Below are positions 44,391 to 49,969 of a stretch of 64,000 bases of DNA, piece after piece. Position numbers and translations under genes: made by a program. The stretch is taken from NCBI RefSeq assembly GCF_019904295.1, contig NZ_CP065359.1:2071001-2135000 (forward strand), read 5' to 3'. Position 1 is the first letter of the stretch, and the number at the start of each line of letters is the position of its first letter. This stretch comes from Ruegeria sp. SCSIO 43209. Its GTDB lineage: Bacteria; Pseudomonadota; Alphaproteobacteria; Rhodobacterales; Rhodobacteraceae. The notes under the pieces were generated by a model. That model was not told where the DNA came from and ran no database searches. It worked only from the letters and a program-made list of their open reading frames with translations.

Positions 44391-44471
44391 CGCGGGTTAT
44401 TCAACCTTCCCCCTAGCGCCAAGCCCTCGTATCGCCTAAATTTTCCCTGATGGTCACAGTTGGGGGGCGCC

Positions 44472-44561
44472 ATGTCCGGGACCGGAGTACAAAAATTGGC
44501 CTATGCGGCCCTGTTGGTGCTGTTGTTCGGCGTCTGCACCGGTCTGTTGGGGGGCCTGTAG
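44472..44561 (+). CDS. Membrane microprotein, 29 residues
   Basis: Short reading frame encoding MSGTGVQKLAYAALLVLLFG, then VCTGLLGGL: a short polar start and one hydrophobic helix long enough to span a membrane. TGGGGGG lies 5 bases before the ATG, and the stop is 4 bases before the XpaC-like start, suggesting translational coupling. No family recognised. Coding status rests on the ribosome site, position and composition, without comparison, so this is a candidate. Confidence 0.5.
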   Translation: MSGTGVQKLAYAALLVLLFGVCTGLLGGL

Positions 44562-44565
44562 CGAA

Positions 44566-45480
44566 ATGGCCAAACGGTACGGCGGCAAATTCAGCCCAGA
44601 AGGCGATGTTTCCTCGCAGGATCAGCCATCGCGTGGCCAATTCGATGGTGCCCGTGTCGAACCGGCAGGTGCACGCGCGAACATCCTGTTTGTCCCGGCG
44701 ATACCACTGGTGTTTCTGTCTCTGAACGATGGCGCGATCGGAATGACCATAGGCCTGGTTGCGGCAGGGCTACTGACCGCTGCCGCGTTTCTGCTGCGCG
44801 AAGGTTTAAGGGCCGAATCCGCTTACAACGCCCGCCGCACCGCACGCAGACCTGCGTTTCCCCGCAAGATATTTTCCAGCGTTCTGACCGGTTTGGGGGC
44901 GGCGCTAGCCTCATACCGGACCGAATTTCTGGACGCCGAAACAGCATCACAGGTAAGCCTGCTGGCCCCCATCCTGTTTGGCGCCGCTGCAACGGTTCTA
45001 CATTCGGTTTCCTTCGGCCTCGACCCAATGAAGGACAAAGGAATGGAGGGTGTCGACACCTTCCAGCAGGACCGTGTCGCACGCGTGGTCGAGGACGCCG
45101 AAACCCATCTGACCCAAATGACAGATGCAATAAAACGCGCAGGTGACCGCCGGATCGAAGCGCGGGTCGAACGCTTTCAGGATACAGCCCGCGATCTGTT
45201 TCGCACGGTCGAGGAAGACCCGCGCGATCTGGCTAGTGCCCGAAAATACCTGACGGTTTATTTGCAGGGCGCGCGCGATGCGACGGTGAAGTTTTCGGAC
45301 GTCTATGCACGGACGCGTGATGCGCAGGCGCTGGCGGACTATTCGGCGTTGCTGGACGATCTTGAACAGAATTTCGCGGCGCGGACGCGAAAGATGCTAT
45401 TGGATGACCGCAGTGATCTGACGGTTGAAATTGATGTGCTGCGCGACAGGCTGCAGCGCGAAGGCGTCCGGTTGGACTGA
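44566..45480 (+). CDS. XpaC-like protein
   Basis: Inner-membrane protein of 304 residues, of the XpaC (5-bromo-4-chloroindolyl phosphate hydrolysis) family. After a 38-residue polar start come two hydrophobic stretches (about 38-78) and shorter ones near 108-122 and 131-150. A long helical cytoplasmic part follows from about 165 (VEDAETHLTQMTDAIKRAGDRRIEARVERF), predicted coiled coil. The XpaC family is paired with TelA in Bacillus (xpaC-yaaN) and in ter-type stress loci. The name reflects an assay phenotype, not an established enzyme. It is 29 bp before telA. Confidence 0.85.
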   Translation: MAKRYGGKFSPEGDVSSQDQPSRGQFDGARVEPAGARANILFVPAIPLVFLSLNDGAIGMTIGLVAAGLLTAAAFLLREGLRAESAYNARRTARRPAFPRKIFSSVLTGLGAALASYRTEFLDAETASQVSLLAPILFGAAATVLHSVSFGLDPMKDKGMEGVDTFQQDRVARVVEDAETHLTQMTDAIKRAGDRRIEARVERFQDTARDLFRTVEEDPRDLASARKYLTVYLQGARDATVKFSDVYARTRDAQALADYSALLDDLEQNFAARTRKMLLDDRSDLTVEIDVLRDRLQREGVRLD

Positions 45481-45509
45481 CCGGCTTTTATGTAAGCGAG
45501 GATTACCCC

Positions 45510-46700
45510 ATGTCCGATGAGATCAAGAACAAGGCAGTCGAGGCTGAAACGCTGGTGCAGGAAGTCACCGCCGTCGCTCTCCCCGAGCCGCAGGCCGAGA
45601 TTGTCCCGCTGGAAGAGGCCGACGAACCGGTTGGTGCCGAGATCCGCAAGCGGATGGGCGAGATCGACATGGGCGACACAAACTCGATCGTGTCCTTTGG
45701 GTCTTCAGCACAGGCAGAATTGCAAGAGATCAGTCAGGCGATGCTGGCCGATGTCCGCAACAAGGATGTGGGCCCGGCGGGTGACAGCCTTCGCAACATC
45801 GTAACAACGATCCGCGGATTCTCAGTCAGCGAACTGGATGTACGTCGCGAGCGTAGCTGGTGGGAAAAACTACTGGGCCGCGCCGCGCCCTTTGCCAAGT
45901 TCACAGCGCAGTATGAAGACGTTCAAAGCCAGATCGACCGGATCACTGATGATCTTCTGGGGCATGAGCATACACTGCTGAAAGATATCAAGTCTTTGGA
46001 TCTGCTGTACGAAAAAACGCTGGAGTTCTACGACGAACTCGCACTGTACATCGCAGCGGGAGAGGAGAAGCTGACCGAGCTGGACAGCCACGACATTCCT
46101 GAAAAAGAGGCCGAGGTTCAGGCCGCGCCCGAAGACCAACAGGTGATGAAAGCGCAGGAATTGCGCGACTTGCGTGCCGCGCGCGATGATCTGGAACGCC
46201 GGGTCCACGACCTGAAGCTTACCCGTCAGGTGACGATGCAATCGCTGCCCTCCATCCGTCTGGTGCAGGAAAATGACAAGTCACTGGTGACCAAGATCAA
46301 CTCGACCCTCGTCAACACAGTACCGCTCTGGGAAACCCAGCTGGCACAAGCTGTCACCATACAGCGCAGTGCCGAGGCCGCCGCTGCCGTACGTGATGCC
46401 AATGATCTGACCAATGAATTGCTGACCTCGAACGCCGCCAACTTGCGCGAATCCAACAAAATGATCCGCGAAGAGATGGAGCGTGGCGTCTTCGATATCG
46501 AAGCCGTCAAACAAGCCAATGCAGACCTGATCGGCACCATCAACGAAAGCCTCGCCATTGCAGACGAAGGCAAGGCCAAACGCGCCGCAGCCGAGGAAGA
46601 ACTGAAGAAGATGGAGGCCGAATTGCGCGACACGCTCGCCTCGGCCAAGGCGCGACAGGACGGGATCGGCGACAATGCCGGAACGGCTGTTCCCGGATAA
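45510..46700 (+). CDS. TelA-family toxic-anion resistance protein
   Basis: Cytoplasmic alpha-helical protein, 396 residues, of the TelA/KlaA family (named for tellurite resistance; real role thought to be membrane or envelope stress). Residues about 75-350 hold the conserved domain, with RSWWEKLLGR near 115, LLGHEHTLLKDIKSLDLLYEKTLEFY near 150-175, and the LTRQVTMQSLPSIRLVQENDKSLVTKI block near 240. Long heptad stretches suggest coiled coils. It follows xpaC-like and overlaps the next gene as TAATG, so the trio is translated together. Confidence 0.93.
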   Translation: MSDEIKNKAVEAETLVQEVTAVALPEPQAEIVPLEEADEPVGAEIRKRMGEIDMGDTNSIVSFGSSAQAELQEISQAMLADVRNKDVGPAGDSLRNIVTTIRGFSVSELDVRRERSWWEKLLGRAAPFAKFTAQYEDVQSQIDRITDDLLGHEHTLLKDIKSLDLLYEKTLEFYDELALYIAAGEEKLTELDSHDIPEKEAEVQAAPEDQQVMKAQELRDLRAARDDLERRVHDLKLTRQVTMQSLPSIRLVQENDKSLVTKINSTLVNTVPLWETQLAQAVTIQRSAEAAAAVRDANDLTNELLTSNAANLRESNKMIREEMERGVFDIEAVKQANADLIGTINESLAIADEGKAKRAAAEEELKKMEAELRDTLASAKARQDGIGDNAGTAVPG

Positions 46701-47671
46701 TGGAAACAGCGGGCGTGCGGCCATTTCATCGCGCTAAGATTGCAGTATTGGGCTTGTCGCTGCTGGCATTTGCTGGCTGCGATGAGGCATTGACGACGAC
46801 GATCGCTCCTGAACCTCAACCTGCCCAGCCGCAAGGCCTGAGCAATGCATATCAAGCGCCCTCACCAGCGAGCCTTGATCTCGCGCGATACTATGAAAGC
46901 GTACAAAATAACCTGCTGACGCGCGGGTTGCTGAGAACCGATGGCGGTGGCCCTGATACGCCCTATGATGCCGATGATCTGGCTCGGAACTTTGAGACCA
47001 TAGCGTTTTATAATGAATATCCGGGGCAAGCCGTTGCCAGCGGCAGCAGTCGCACCAGCCGACAGCTTAGTCGCTGGTCGTCGCCGGTTCGCATAAAGCC
47101 CGAGTTTGGTCCATCGGTTGCACCTGAAGTCCGCCAGCAAGAGGCCGCCCGAATTGACGCCTACGCCAACCGCTTGTCGCGGCTCACTGGACACCCGGTC
47201 TCAACCACCACCCGGAATGCAAATTTCCACGTCTTCGTGGCGGGTGAAGATGATACCGCTTATGTGCAAGCCCGGCTGCGACAACTGATCCCGGGCATAG
47301 GGCAGGCACAACTTGACCTCTTCGACAAACTGCCACGCTCTTTCTATTGCTTTGTATTCGCTTCGGCGTCGAACAGCGCGCCACAGACATATACCCGGGC
47401 TGTTGCCCTGATCCGGGCGGAACATCCCGATCTGGTGCGCCTGAGTTGCGTCCACGAAGAGATCGCTCAGGGATTGGGGCTGCCGAATGACAGCCCGTCT
47501 GCCCGGCCATCAATCTTCAACGATGACGACGAGTTCGCCCTGCTCACAAGCCATGATGAAAAACTACTAACCATTCTATACGACCCGCGCCTCAAGCCTG
47601 GCATGACAGCTGACGAAGCGCGGCCAGTGGTCCGTATCATTGCACGCGAATTGATGGGGCAGTCGCTCTGA
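46700..47671 (+). CDS. DUF2927 lipoprotein
   Basis: Predicted lipoprotein of 323 residues. The signal peptide contains AVLGLSLLAFAGC with lipobox LAFAGC (Cys27) and Asp at +2, after a slightly long N-region. The DUF2927 domain follows from about residue 85. It contains SRWSSPVRI, an Arg-rich VRLSCVHEEIAQGLGLPND motif (HEE-x-x-Q-G-L-G-L-x-N-D) that resembles a zincin active site, and two Cys that may pair. Function unknown; a peptidase role is speculation. Start overlaps the telA stop by one base. Confidence 0.85.
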   Translation: METAGVRPFHRAKIAVLGLSLLAFAGCDEALTTTIAPEPQPAQPQGLSNAYQAPSPASLDLARYYESVQNNLLTRGLLRTDGGGPDTPYDADDLARNFETIAFYNEYPGQAVASGSSRTSRQLSRWSSPVRIKPEFGPSVAPEVRQQEAARIDAYANRLSRLTGHPVSTTTRNANFHVFVAGEDDTAYVQARLRQLIPGIGQAQLDLFDKLPRSFYCFVFASASNSAPQTYTRAVALIRAEHPDLVRLSCVHEEIAQGLGLPNDSPSARPSIFNDDDEFALLTSHDEKLLTILYDPRLKPGMTADEARPVVRIIARELMGQSL

Positions 47672-47693
47672 CCCCGAAGACAGGAGAAATCCA

Positions 47694-48842
47694 ATGGGAA
47701 TTTTTGATTTTCTGACCGGTGAATTCATAGATGTCATCCACTGGGTCGACGATACGCGCGACACCATGGTCTGGCGGTTCGAGCGTGAAGGACACGAGAT
47801 CAAATACGGCGCCAAGCTGACCGTGCGCGAAGGTCAAGCGGCGGTCTTTGTGCATGAGGGGCAGTTGGCGGATGTCTTCACCCCAGGTCTCTACATGCTT
47901 GAGACAAACAACATGCCGATCATGACGACGCTGCAGCATTGGGATCACGGCTTTCAGTCTCCGTTCAAGTCTGAAATTTACTTCGTTAACACGACCCGGT
48001 TCAATGACCTGAAATGGGGCACCAAGAACCCGATCATGCTGCGCGATCCCGAGTTTGGACCAACACGCATCCGGGCCTTCGGCACCTATACGGTGCGGGT
48101 CAAGGACCCGGCGAAATTCCTGGTCGAAATCGTCGGTACCGATGGTGAATTCACCATGGACGAGATCAGCTTTCAGATCAGAAACATCATCGTGCAGGAA
48201 TTCAGCCGCGTCATCGCAGGCTCGGGCATTCCAGTTCTCGATATGGCGGCGAACACGGCCGATCTGGGCAAACTGATTGCCGCCGAGGTGTCACCGGTGC
48301 TGGACGGATATGGTTTGAGCATGCCCGAGTTCTACATCGAGAACATCTCGCTGCCACCAGCGGTCGAGGCCGCGCTGGACAAACGCACATCGATGGGGTT
48401 GGCGGGCGATCTGGGCAAGTTCACGCAGTATTCCGCAGCCGAAGCGATGACTGCGGCAGCCAACAACCCTGGCCAGGGTGGCGGCCTGGGCGCGGGTCTT
48501 GGCATGGGAATGGGCATGGCGATGGCGCAGCAGATGTCGAACATGGCAGCGGGTCAGCCGAGCGGCCCTTGGGGCGGTTCCGCTCCCGCTGCCCCGCAGG
48601 CCTCGGCGCCTGCGGCACCGCCACCCCCGCCACCCGTCGAGCATGTATGGCATATCGCAGTGGATGGTCAGACCAGCGGGCCGTTTTCCAAGGCCAAGAT
48701 GGGCCGAATGGCGACCGATGGTGAGATAACGCGCGAGACCCACGTTTGGACCGCCGGACAGGACGGTTGGAAGAAGGCAGGCGACGTGCAGGAACTGGCA
48801 CAGCTGTTCACGATCCTGCCTCCGCCGCCTCCGGGCGCGTGA
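47694..48842 (+). CDS. SPFH-domain protein with C-terminal GYF_2 domain
   Basis: Protein of 382 residues of the YdjI/virion-core-like SPFH group. It starts MGIFDFLTGEFIDVIHWVDD without a membrane segment; the SPFH domain is about residues 30-240. A Gly/Met/Ala-rich linker (about 255-300) and a Pro/Ala stretch precede a GYF_2 domain (about 318-372: WHIAVDGQTSGPFSKAKM, TRETHVWTAGQDGWKKAGD). The tail is Pro-rich. SPFH proteins form membrane scaffolds; in Bacillus ydjI sits with a zinc-ribbon gene (ydjG) and a PspA gene. The same pairing here suggests an envelope-stress complex. 22 bp after DUF2927. Confidence 0.9.
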   Translation: MGIFDFLTGEFIDVIHWVDDTRDTMVWRFEREGHEIKYGAKLTVREGQAAVFVHEGQLADVFTPGLYMLETNNMPIMTTLQHWDHGFQSPFKSEIYFVNTTRFNDLKWGTKNPIMLRDPEFGPTRIRAFGTYTVRVKDPAKFLVEIVGTDGEFTMDEISFQIRNIIVQEFSRVIAGSGIPVLDMAANTADLGKLIAAEVSPVLDGYGLSMPEFYIENISLPPAVEAALDKRTSMGLAGDLGKFTQYSAAEAMTAAANNPGQGGGLGAGLGMGMGMAMAQQMSNMAAGQPSGPWGGSAPAAPQASAPAAPPPPPPVEHVWHIAVDGQTSGPFSKAKMGRMATDGEITRETHVWTAGQDGWKKAGDVQELAQLFTILPPPPPGA

Positions 48843-48877
48843 TCTGACATTTGGTAACCTGATTTCGAGGTTCTGTC

Positions 48878-49969
48878 ATGGCGAAAGACGAACACCGTTT
48901 CCCCTGCGACCAATGCGGGGCGGATTATCGGTTCAATCCCGGTGACGGAACGCTGACCTGCGATCATTGTGGCAACACCAGAACGATCGGTGCTGGCCCA
49001 TGGGGTGGTGCGAGTCTGCGAGAGCTGGATTTCGACGCCGCCATCGCGGATCGCTTGCCTGACAGCGAGATTGAAGAAACCCGTGTTCTGACTTGTCCAA
49101 ACTGCGCGGCTCAGGTTGAGTTTGATCCGAACACCCATGCTGCGGAGTGCCCGTTCTGTGCCACTCCGGTAGTGACCGATACAGGCGTTAGCCGCCATAT
49201 CAAACCCCGCGGAGTGTTGCCCTTTGCACTGGATGAACGCTCGGCCCACAAGGCAATGGGGGATTGGCTGGGCCGACTGTGGTTTGCACCCAACGGGTTG
49301 AAGGAATACGCTCGAAAGGGACGCAAGATGCAGGGCATTTATGTCCCGTATTGGACCTTCGACGCTGATACCAAGTCGAGCTATCGTGGGGAACGCGGTG
49401 TGGTGTATTACGAAACTCGCACTGTGATGCGCGATGGAAAGCGCGTGCAGCAACAGGTTCCCAAAGTGCGCTGGACGCCAAAATCCGGACGGGTTGCACG
49501 GTTCTTTGACGATGTTCTGGTGTTGGCATCACAATCGCTGCCCAAATCCTATACCGATGCGCTGGAGCCATGGGACCTGCCTGCGCTTGAGCCATACCAG
49601 CCGGAATATCTGGCCGGTTTCCGCGCCGAGGCTTACACGGTCGAACTGCGAGAAGGTTATCAAGAGGCCCGCGCACATATGGCACGGGTGATCGAGCGTG
49701 ACGTGCGGTTCGATATCGGAGGCGATCGTCAGCGCATTCACGCTGTCGACACCGAAGTGCGCGATGTTACATTCAAACACATCCTCCTGCCGGTTTGGAT
49801 GGCGGCCTATAAATACCGCGGCCAGACCTATCGTTTTGTGGTCAATGGCCGGACCGGCCGCGTTCAGGGCGAGCGTCCCTGGTCCGCAATCAAGATTACG
49901 ATCGCCGTGGTTCTGGGCCTTCTCGTTGCGGCCGGCGTCGGGTATCTGGTGGCAACTGGACAGCAATAA
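48878..49969 (+). CDS. Membrane-anchored double zinc-ribbon protein (YdjG-like)
   Basis: Protein of 363 residues. The first zinc ribbon uses Cys10/Cys13 and Cys28/Cys31, the second Cys73/Cys76 and Cys91/Cys94. A globular middle part (about 100-330, FDADTKSSYRGERGVVYYETR and LLPVWMAAYKYRGQTYRFVVNGRTG) resembles the TFIIB-zinc-ribbon/YdjG family. A single C-terminal membrane helix (about 338-360) anchors it, so the ribbons face the cytoplasm. It follows the SPFH gene by 35 bp, as in Bacillus ydjG-ydjI. A role in assembling the SPFH scaffold or sensing metal is inference. Confidence 0.88.
   Translation: MAKDEHRFPCDQCGADYRFNPGDGTLTCDHCGNTRTIGAGPWGGASLRELDFDAAIADRLPDSEIEETRVLTCPNCAAQVEFDPNTHAAECPFCATPVVTDTGVSRHIKPRGVLPFALDERSAHKAMGDWLGRLWFAPNGLKEYARKGRKMQGIYVPYWTFDADTKSSYRGERGVVYYETRTVMRDGKRVQQQVPKVRWTPKSGRVARFFDDVLVLASQSLPKSYTDALEPWDLPALEPYQPEYLAGFRAEAYTVELREGYQEARAHMARVIERDVRFDIGGDRQRIHAVDTEVRDVTFKHILLPVWMAAYKYRGQTYRFVVNGRTGRVQGERPWSAIKITIAVVLGLLVAAGVGYLVATGQQ

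Follow-up and report, generated by a model that had tools for sequence, protein, structure and literature searches.

A cluster of six genes was analysed in Ruegeria sp. SCSIO 43209, within a stretch of 64,000 nucleotides (nt) of contig NZ_CP065359.1 (positions 2,071,001 to 2,135,000). The whole stretch is referred to as the window, and positions are counted from its first letter. All six genes are on the + strand in the order micropeptide-xpaC-telA-duf2927-spfh-znr, where znr encodes a zinc-ribbon (ZnR) protein (Table 1). An earlier note on this DNA had described five families in this order, all on the same strand, separated by at most 35 bp and with one overlap. Pfam matches and sequence coordinates agree with that description, but the genes number six, not five. 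The intergenic distances from xpaC onward are 29, -1, 22 and 35 nt, the -1 junction being one base common to the TelA stop and the DUF2927 start codons. Position 44472, which had been taken as the start of XpaC, is actually the ATG of an unreported 29-codon gene that ends at 44561, in a frame different from that of XpaC, with 4 nt between its stop and the xpaC start. XpaC most likely starts at 44566; another in-frame ATG is at 44503.

The family assignments are as follows. XpaC matches PF10112 (expect value, E, 6.8e-28; 98.4 bits against a cut-off of 29.8), and TelA matches PF05816 near full length (E 1.6e-108, 363.2 bits, profile positions 5-331 of 332). The DUF2927 protein matches PF11150 (E 5.3e-65), and the SPFH protein matches PF13421 (E 9.1e-102) as well as GYF_2 (E 7.5e-22). 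The zinc-ribbon protein has a single match above the Pfam cut-off, PF11781 (E 6.1e-8), and displays four CxxC motifs.

Table 1. Coordinates of the genes and other features of the cluster in the window (aa, amino acids).
Feature	Position	Strand	Remarks
Candidate promoter/operator, TTCCCCCTAG ... CCTAAATTT	44407..44443	+	Enriched upstream of xpaC
Unannotated 29-codon micropeptide gene, MSGTGVQKLAYAALLVLLFGVCTGLLGGL	44472..44561	+	One predicted membrane helix; no Pfam match
xpaC (PF10112), 304 aa	44566..45480	+	Hydrophobic segments start near residues 40, 59 and 130
telA (PF05816), 396 aa	45510..46700	+	Without membrane segment; predicted long helices 127-205 and 208-320
DUF2927 lipoprotein gene (PF11150), lipobox Cys27	46700..47671	+	Predicted metzincin-like fold
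DUF2927 site, residues 252-264 (H E E I A Q G L G L P N D)	47453..47491	+	
SPFH (Band_7_1) protein gene, C-terminal GYF_2	47694..48842	+	Without membrane segment
GYF_2 domain of SPFH protein	48648..48797	+	Pfam match
YdjG-like zinc-ribbon gene	48878..49969	+	CxxC at residues 10, 28, 73 and 91; middle domain; C-terminal membrane helix near 340

Conservation was assessed in 121 genomes of 58 genera, all from the window's own family. DUF2927 is present in 120 of these, TelA in 119, and the Band_7_1 SPFH protein in 118 (117 above the cut-off). Among the 118 genomes with a full-length TelA, SPFH lies less than 6 kb downstream of TelA on the same strand in 115 and DUF2927 lies within 2.5 kb of TelA in at least 113; one more DUF2927 case was found by tblastn in genome G059 (locus L071). 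TelA, DUF2927 and SPFH occur in this order in at least 111 of the 118. Co-location in related genomes had been set beforehand as a test of the earlier proposal, and it is borne out. At the level of 40 fetched family loci (L052-L091, tblastn), five genes are all in order in 30, and the other ten (L056, L057, L058, L064, L065, L074, L076, L081, L085 and L089) miss at least one detectable gene. In a family of mostly marine bacteria the cluster is near-universal.

A profile built from 23 seed peptides was used to scan for the micropeptide, with a threshold of more than 10 bits. Of 120 stretches upstream of xpaC, 111 exceed it; none of 120 does so on the reverse strand, nor does any of 120 from a control region. 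With one duplicate removed, the micropeptide is in 110 of 119 distinct loci, or 87 of 96 among non-seed loci; these and the upstream counts below exclude L092, L093, L099 and L101. The nine loci without a match (L149, L172, L202, L203, L094-L097 and L042) include none from the window's family, some of them have a weak candidate, and in L172 the xpaC match sits at a contig start, far from telA. In most family loci about 5 nt or less separate the micropeptide stop from the beginning of the xpaC match. Among seven close relatives, nonsynonymous and synonymous rates are dN 0.189 and dS 1.119 (proportions pN 0.167 and pS 0.581), a dN/dS of about 0.17, and the two other frames of the region give pN/pS of 1.16 and 1.99. 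Judged from the profile and substitution tests, the micropeptide is encoded by a real gene, one under purifying selection. A 44-residue gammaproteobacterial form used as a query retrieved 41 proteins of 42-61 residues, named "hypothetical protein" where named at all. The gene is below the usual annotation size and represents a new component relevant to any study of xpaC-telA.

Directly upstream of the micropeptide in close relatives is a block consisting of TTCCCCCTAG followed by CCTARATTT. Of 120 loci, 30 have the sequence TTCCCCCT, likewise picked out post hoc, upstream of xpaC, against none of 120 control stretches, and further 8-mers are enriched there, e.g., TGCTGATC (20 versus 1). The composite pattern, a block noticed post hoc and lacking in most other loci, is in 18 of 120 loci, 0 of 120 controls and 1 of 120 reverse strands, and has a single match in the window's own genome. 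A possible role of the block is that of an activator site overlying a promoter; an alternative reading is a CCCCTA direct repeat. Counts of sigma-70 promoters and of terminators equal chance (2 versus 2.5 and 8 versus 7.7).

The SPFH and zinc-ribbon genes resemble part of a known Firmicute system. Residues 10-358 of the zinc-ribbon protein align by BLASTP with the middle gene product of an Enterococcus SPFH-ZnR-TPM cassette (25% identity, E 3e-36), the comparison being with this Enterococcus member rather than with B. subtilis YdjG itself, and the two SPFH proteins are 21% identical (E 4e-10). By these alignments the SPFH-ZnR half is homologous to a ydjGHI-type cassette, the zinc-ribbon protein along its length, and the earlier view that two Bacillus-type modules are joined here is supported. 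As in B. subtilis pspA-ydjGHI, an SPFH protein without a membrane segment of its own lies beside a protein with two zinc ribbons and a membrane helix. The Bacillus SPFH protein that is written YdjL is taken here to be YdjI. It ends in a zinc ribbon, according to PMC11237479, whereas the window's SPFH protein has GYF_2 in that place. PMC8581546 describes YdjI as a likely soluble SPFH protein that needs the membrane proteins YdjG/H; two-hybrid tests show it to interact with PspA, whose localisation at the membrane depends on YdjI, and YdjG/H are needed to retain both YdjI and PspA there. A further difference is that the window's SPFH-ZnR pair is joined to XpaC-TelA, and that neither PspA/IM30 nor a TPM-domain protein (YdjH) has any match in the genome of the window. 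Elsewhere in the family PspA is found in 40 of 121 genomes, including two of the six sampled from the window's genus. Compared by eye, no genome among the 40 has PspA and TelA less than 20 kb apart on the same contig; the closest pair is separated by about 21 kb (G073).

XpaC and TelA are a known pair, and the links to stress are found in other bacteria. L. lactis llmg_1115 (XpaC-like) and telA1 appear with ratios of 10.3 and 3.44 in a transcriptomic table on membrane-protein overproduction (PMC3139573), and a Listeria mutant in lmo1967 (telA) is reported to show nisin susceptibility increased 4-fold and tellurite susceptibility 2-fold, the nisin value being from Collins 2010 (PMC12791056). 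XpaC and TelA of the same families also adjoin in the xpaC-yaaN/telA pairs of Bacillus, Listeria (lmo1966-1967) and Lactococcus (llmg_1115-1116), for which links to envelope stress are reported; the window's pair differs by DUF2927 and SPFH-ZnR after it, and the micropeptide gene precedes it. TelA genes are also found on plasmids, as in RK2 kilA-telAB, and 593 plasmid records match; among the matches listed, however, 24 of 25 are 24 to 29% identical to the window's TelA. No paper joining TelA, XpaC and SPFH was found in the open-access library searched, nor any joining toxic anion resistance with SPFH or with 5-bromo-4-chloroindolyl phosphate hydrolysis.

The DUF2927 protein was earlier compared to a zincin on the basis of its HEE block. 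The resemblance is maintained at the level of the predicted model, which has a metzincin (zincin) fold, but not at the level of the site. Where metzincins such as matrixins and snapalysin have HExxHxxGxxH/D, DUF2927 reads EExxQxxGxxN, and in the presumed register the positions of the His ligands are E253, Q257 and N263. The pattern HExxHxxG is in 0 of 85 distinct DUF2927 sequences and EE..Q is in 85 of 85, counts that exclude L076 (a far copy), L078 (start misread, 29 aa) and loci running off their contig. The His of the HEE block varies within the family: residue 252 is Val, Leu or Ala in five distant members that were read, and a sixth, L231, is unmatched by the pattern. Confidence of the model is low after the site (block means of 61 and 52 for residues 261-280, with 274-277 below 50), where a Met-turn would be expected. 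The likeness to metzincins is one of predicted fold, without a significant sequence match: hhalign against 19 Peptidase_M10 segments gave E 0.51 in local mode and six meaningless columns in global mode, and the best match in the PDB had E 1. Since the zinc ligands are replaced, DUF2927 is unlikely to be a working zinc protease, and an ordinary zinc protease was rejected as an assignment. A metzincin fold without zinc ligands provides a structural hypothesis for a family of unknown function, which no paper in the open-access library searched mentions.

The protein had also been called an outer lipoprotein. The lipobox is present, but the outer placement is uncertain, as the residue following the lipobox Cys is Asp, which in E. 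coli is an inner-membrane signal. A second DUF2927 protein, of 454 aa, is encoded in the same genome at L002:895-2259 (G000:C1, about 1080261-1081625, - strand). It has a weak TPR match and the same EE..Q..G..ND site, and its gene adjoins genes for a GNAT acetyltransferase and for an AAA ATPase with a weak MoxR-type match.

Outside of the window's family the cluster is found in other forms. TelA is in 13 of 142 genomes across the class and 50 of 299 across the phylum, both including the window's family, and DUF2927 is elsewhere in the class in 17 of 133 genomes. The loci named were the best 80 of 498 confirmed TelA-profile matches. By title, 25 of the 80 were judged non-Rhodobacterales, with genus placements that are our assumption. 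Among these 25, SPFH is present in 18, ZnR in 13, the complete XpaC-TelA-SPFH-ZnR core in 11 and DUF2927 in none. The core is complete in L147, L149, L151, L152, L156, L159, L161, L190, L196, L202 and L206, which include Granulosicoccaceae, Sedimenticola, Thiothrix and Elioraea; several of the remaining loci are on short contigs. A four-gene core without DUF2927 is found in L094-L097 as well. Thus the core is not confined to Rhodobacterales. The zero for DUF2927 partly reflects the sorting, because L148, L167, L174 and L214, titled Alphaproteobacteria or Pseudomonadota, carry DUF2927 and were placed with Rhodobacterales. Still, among the best 80 no locus titled Gammaproteobacteria or with a gammaproteobacterial genus has DUF2927. 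Because Gammaproteobacteria hold XpaC-TelA-SPFH-ZnR without it, insertion of DUF2927 between telA and spfh in Rhodobacterales is the simplest and probable course of events, loss elsewhere being the alternative. In L158, L165, L218, L219 and L225, the micropeptide, XpaC and TelA are together where SPFH-ZnR was not found, and in Enterococcus SPFH-ZnR is with a TPM gene. Three separable units are seen: micropeptide-XpaC-TelA, DUF2927 (with TelA in L074) and SPFH-ZnR. The earlier note had missed this four-gene core, the micropeptide gene, and the fact that neither PspA nor TPM has a match in the genome.

Because YdjI-like and YdjG-like parts are present and PspA and YdjH have no match, XpaC-TelA is most simply read as a substitute for YdjH-PspA, a view drawn from parts and position. 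At a likelihood a little short of even, the cluster may be a PspA-free scaffold for inner-membrane surveillance, a relative of the Bacillus phage-shock system PspA-YdjGHI. XpaC, with the micropeptide, and the zinc-ribbon protein would anchor the cytoplasmic TelA and an oligomer of SPFH-GYF_2 at the membrane. A disturbance of the membrane or envelope would cause SPFH to assemble with TelA, the long helical protein that would fill the role of PspA, and this assembly would stabilise the bilayer. In Rhodobacterales the DUF2927 pseudo-metzincin lipoprotein would give the system a periplasmic subunit for binding or sensing. The full form of this proposal, a PspA-free membrane-repair machine with TelA as the SPFH scaffold's polymer-forming partner, under the control of the micropeptide through its binding to XpaC, and with the pseudo-metzincin (E, Q, N) as a periplasmic sensor added in Rhodobacterales, is doubtful when all its parts are taken together. 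The function of TelA and XpaC, both widespread proteins, is unsettled; their link here to an SPFH scaffold, in a genome that lacks a PspA match, offers a concrete system for testing what TelA does.

Several observations weigh against the scaffold. All 40 PspA-containing genomes of the family also have TelA, including the two of the window's genus, so that TelA is not a simple replacement of PspA. A likeness of TelA to PspA is unsupported: the structure model is weak (mean predicted local distance difference test, pLDDT, 67.4), its helical-bundle matches are below the guide value for helical proteins, and the TelA and PspA profiles have no significant match. Outside the family, strong TelA is in 27 and strong SPFH in 21 of the 299 sampled genomes, with both in only five; four of these carry them on separate contigs and the fifth at a distance of 129 kb, a comparison made by eye and limited by fragmented assemblies. 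Three family loci (L058, L064 and L089) hold the cluster without DUF2927, and L074 keeps xpaC-telA-duf2927 in a genome (G081) without a Band_7_1 match. Plasmids of Vibrio, Comamonas and Tsukamurella have SPFH-ZnR without an annotated TelA, PspA or TPM within about 6 kb. In Gemmobacter caeruleus (L160), spfh-znr is inverted, which makes one transcript impossible there, and yet it remains beside xpaC-telA-duf2927.

Some of these observations, namely L074, the lone plasmid SPFH-ZnR pairs, the core without DUF2927 and the rarity of TelA with SPFH outside the family, together with other genes inserted between modules, would also be expected if micropeptide-XpaC-TelA, DUF2927 and SPFH-ZnR were separate modules kept adjoining by co-regulation or inertia of gene order. 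This explanation is rather unlikely, as the order is held in at least 111 of 118 genomes from a sample of 58 genera, the inverted pair of L160 has stayed beside the rest, and Gammaproteobacteria have the identical XpaC-TelA-SPFH-ZnR order. An operon for resistance to tellurite (an oxyanion), in which TelA and XpaC protect and SPFH, the zinc-ribbon protein and DUF2927 help to repair metal or redox damage, should also be considered, with a comparably small chance of being correct. TelA is named for such resistance and matches phrog_5890, "tellurite resistance" (E 2.8e-47), and this explanation stays alive because chromosomal telA of Rhodobacter sphaeroides is listed among tellurite-resistance elements, at second hand, in a review (PMC6955997) citing O'Gara 1997. 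However, the Listeria mutant is affected more for nisin than for tellurite, and TelA in 119 of 121 family genomes would suit a housekeeping function more readily than defence against a toxin that is seldom met. The reported stress links of XpaC-TelA in Lactococcus and Listeria favour envelope stress. A periplasmic proteolytic stress sensor, in which DUF2927 would be an active zinc protease cutting a signal protein, with the remaining genes passing the signal on, is very improbable given the motif counts and the variable residue 252 described above. Anti-phage defence was rejected, as the PADLOC matches have no weight (best E 0.0075).

The envelope-scaffold reading aside, other genes are found within and next to the cluster. 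A cytochrome b561-type gene, apparently of two kinds, is repeatedly inserted between spfh and znr, at L053:8322-8924, L086:9097-9639 and L090:8231-8719 (PF01292 for these three), and by eye also in L061, L063, L067 and L073. Between duf2927 and spfh, a DUF4241 protein is encoded in L057, with similar-looking ones in L082 and L063 (the latter without a Pfam match), and a DUF6338 protein in L065, with a similar one in L078. A nitroreductase gene lies 63 nt beyond the zinc-ribbon gene in the window and is not a constant neighbour across loci. In L081 (8954 bases, from genome G085, which is without DUF2927 or SPFH matches), TelA is divergent or degenerate, with 27% identity to the window's TelA, and is flanked by RluB-like and nitroreductase genes, as in the window.

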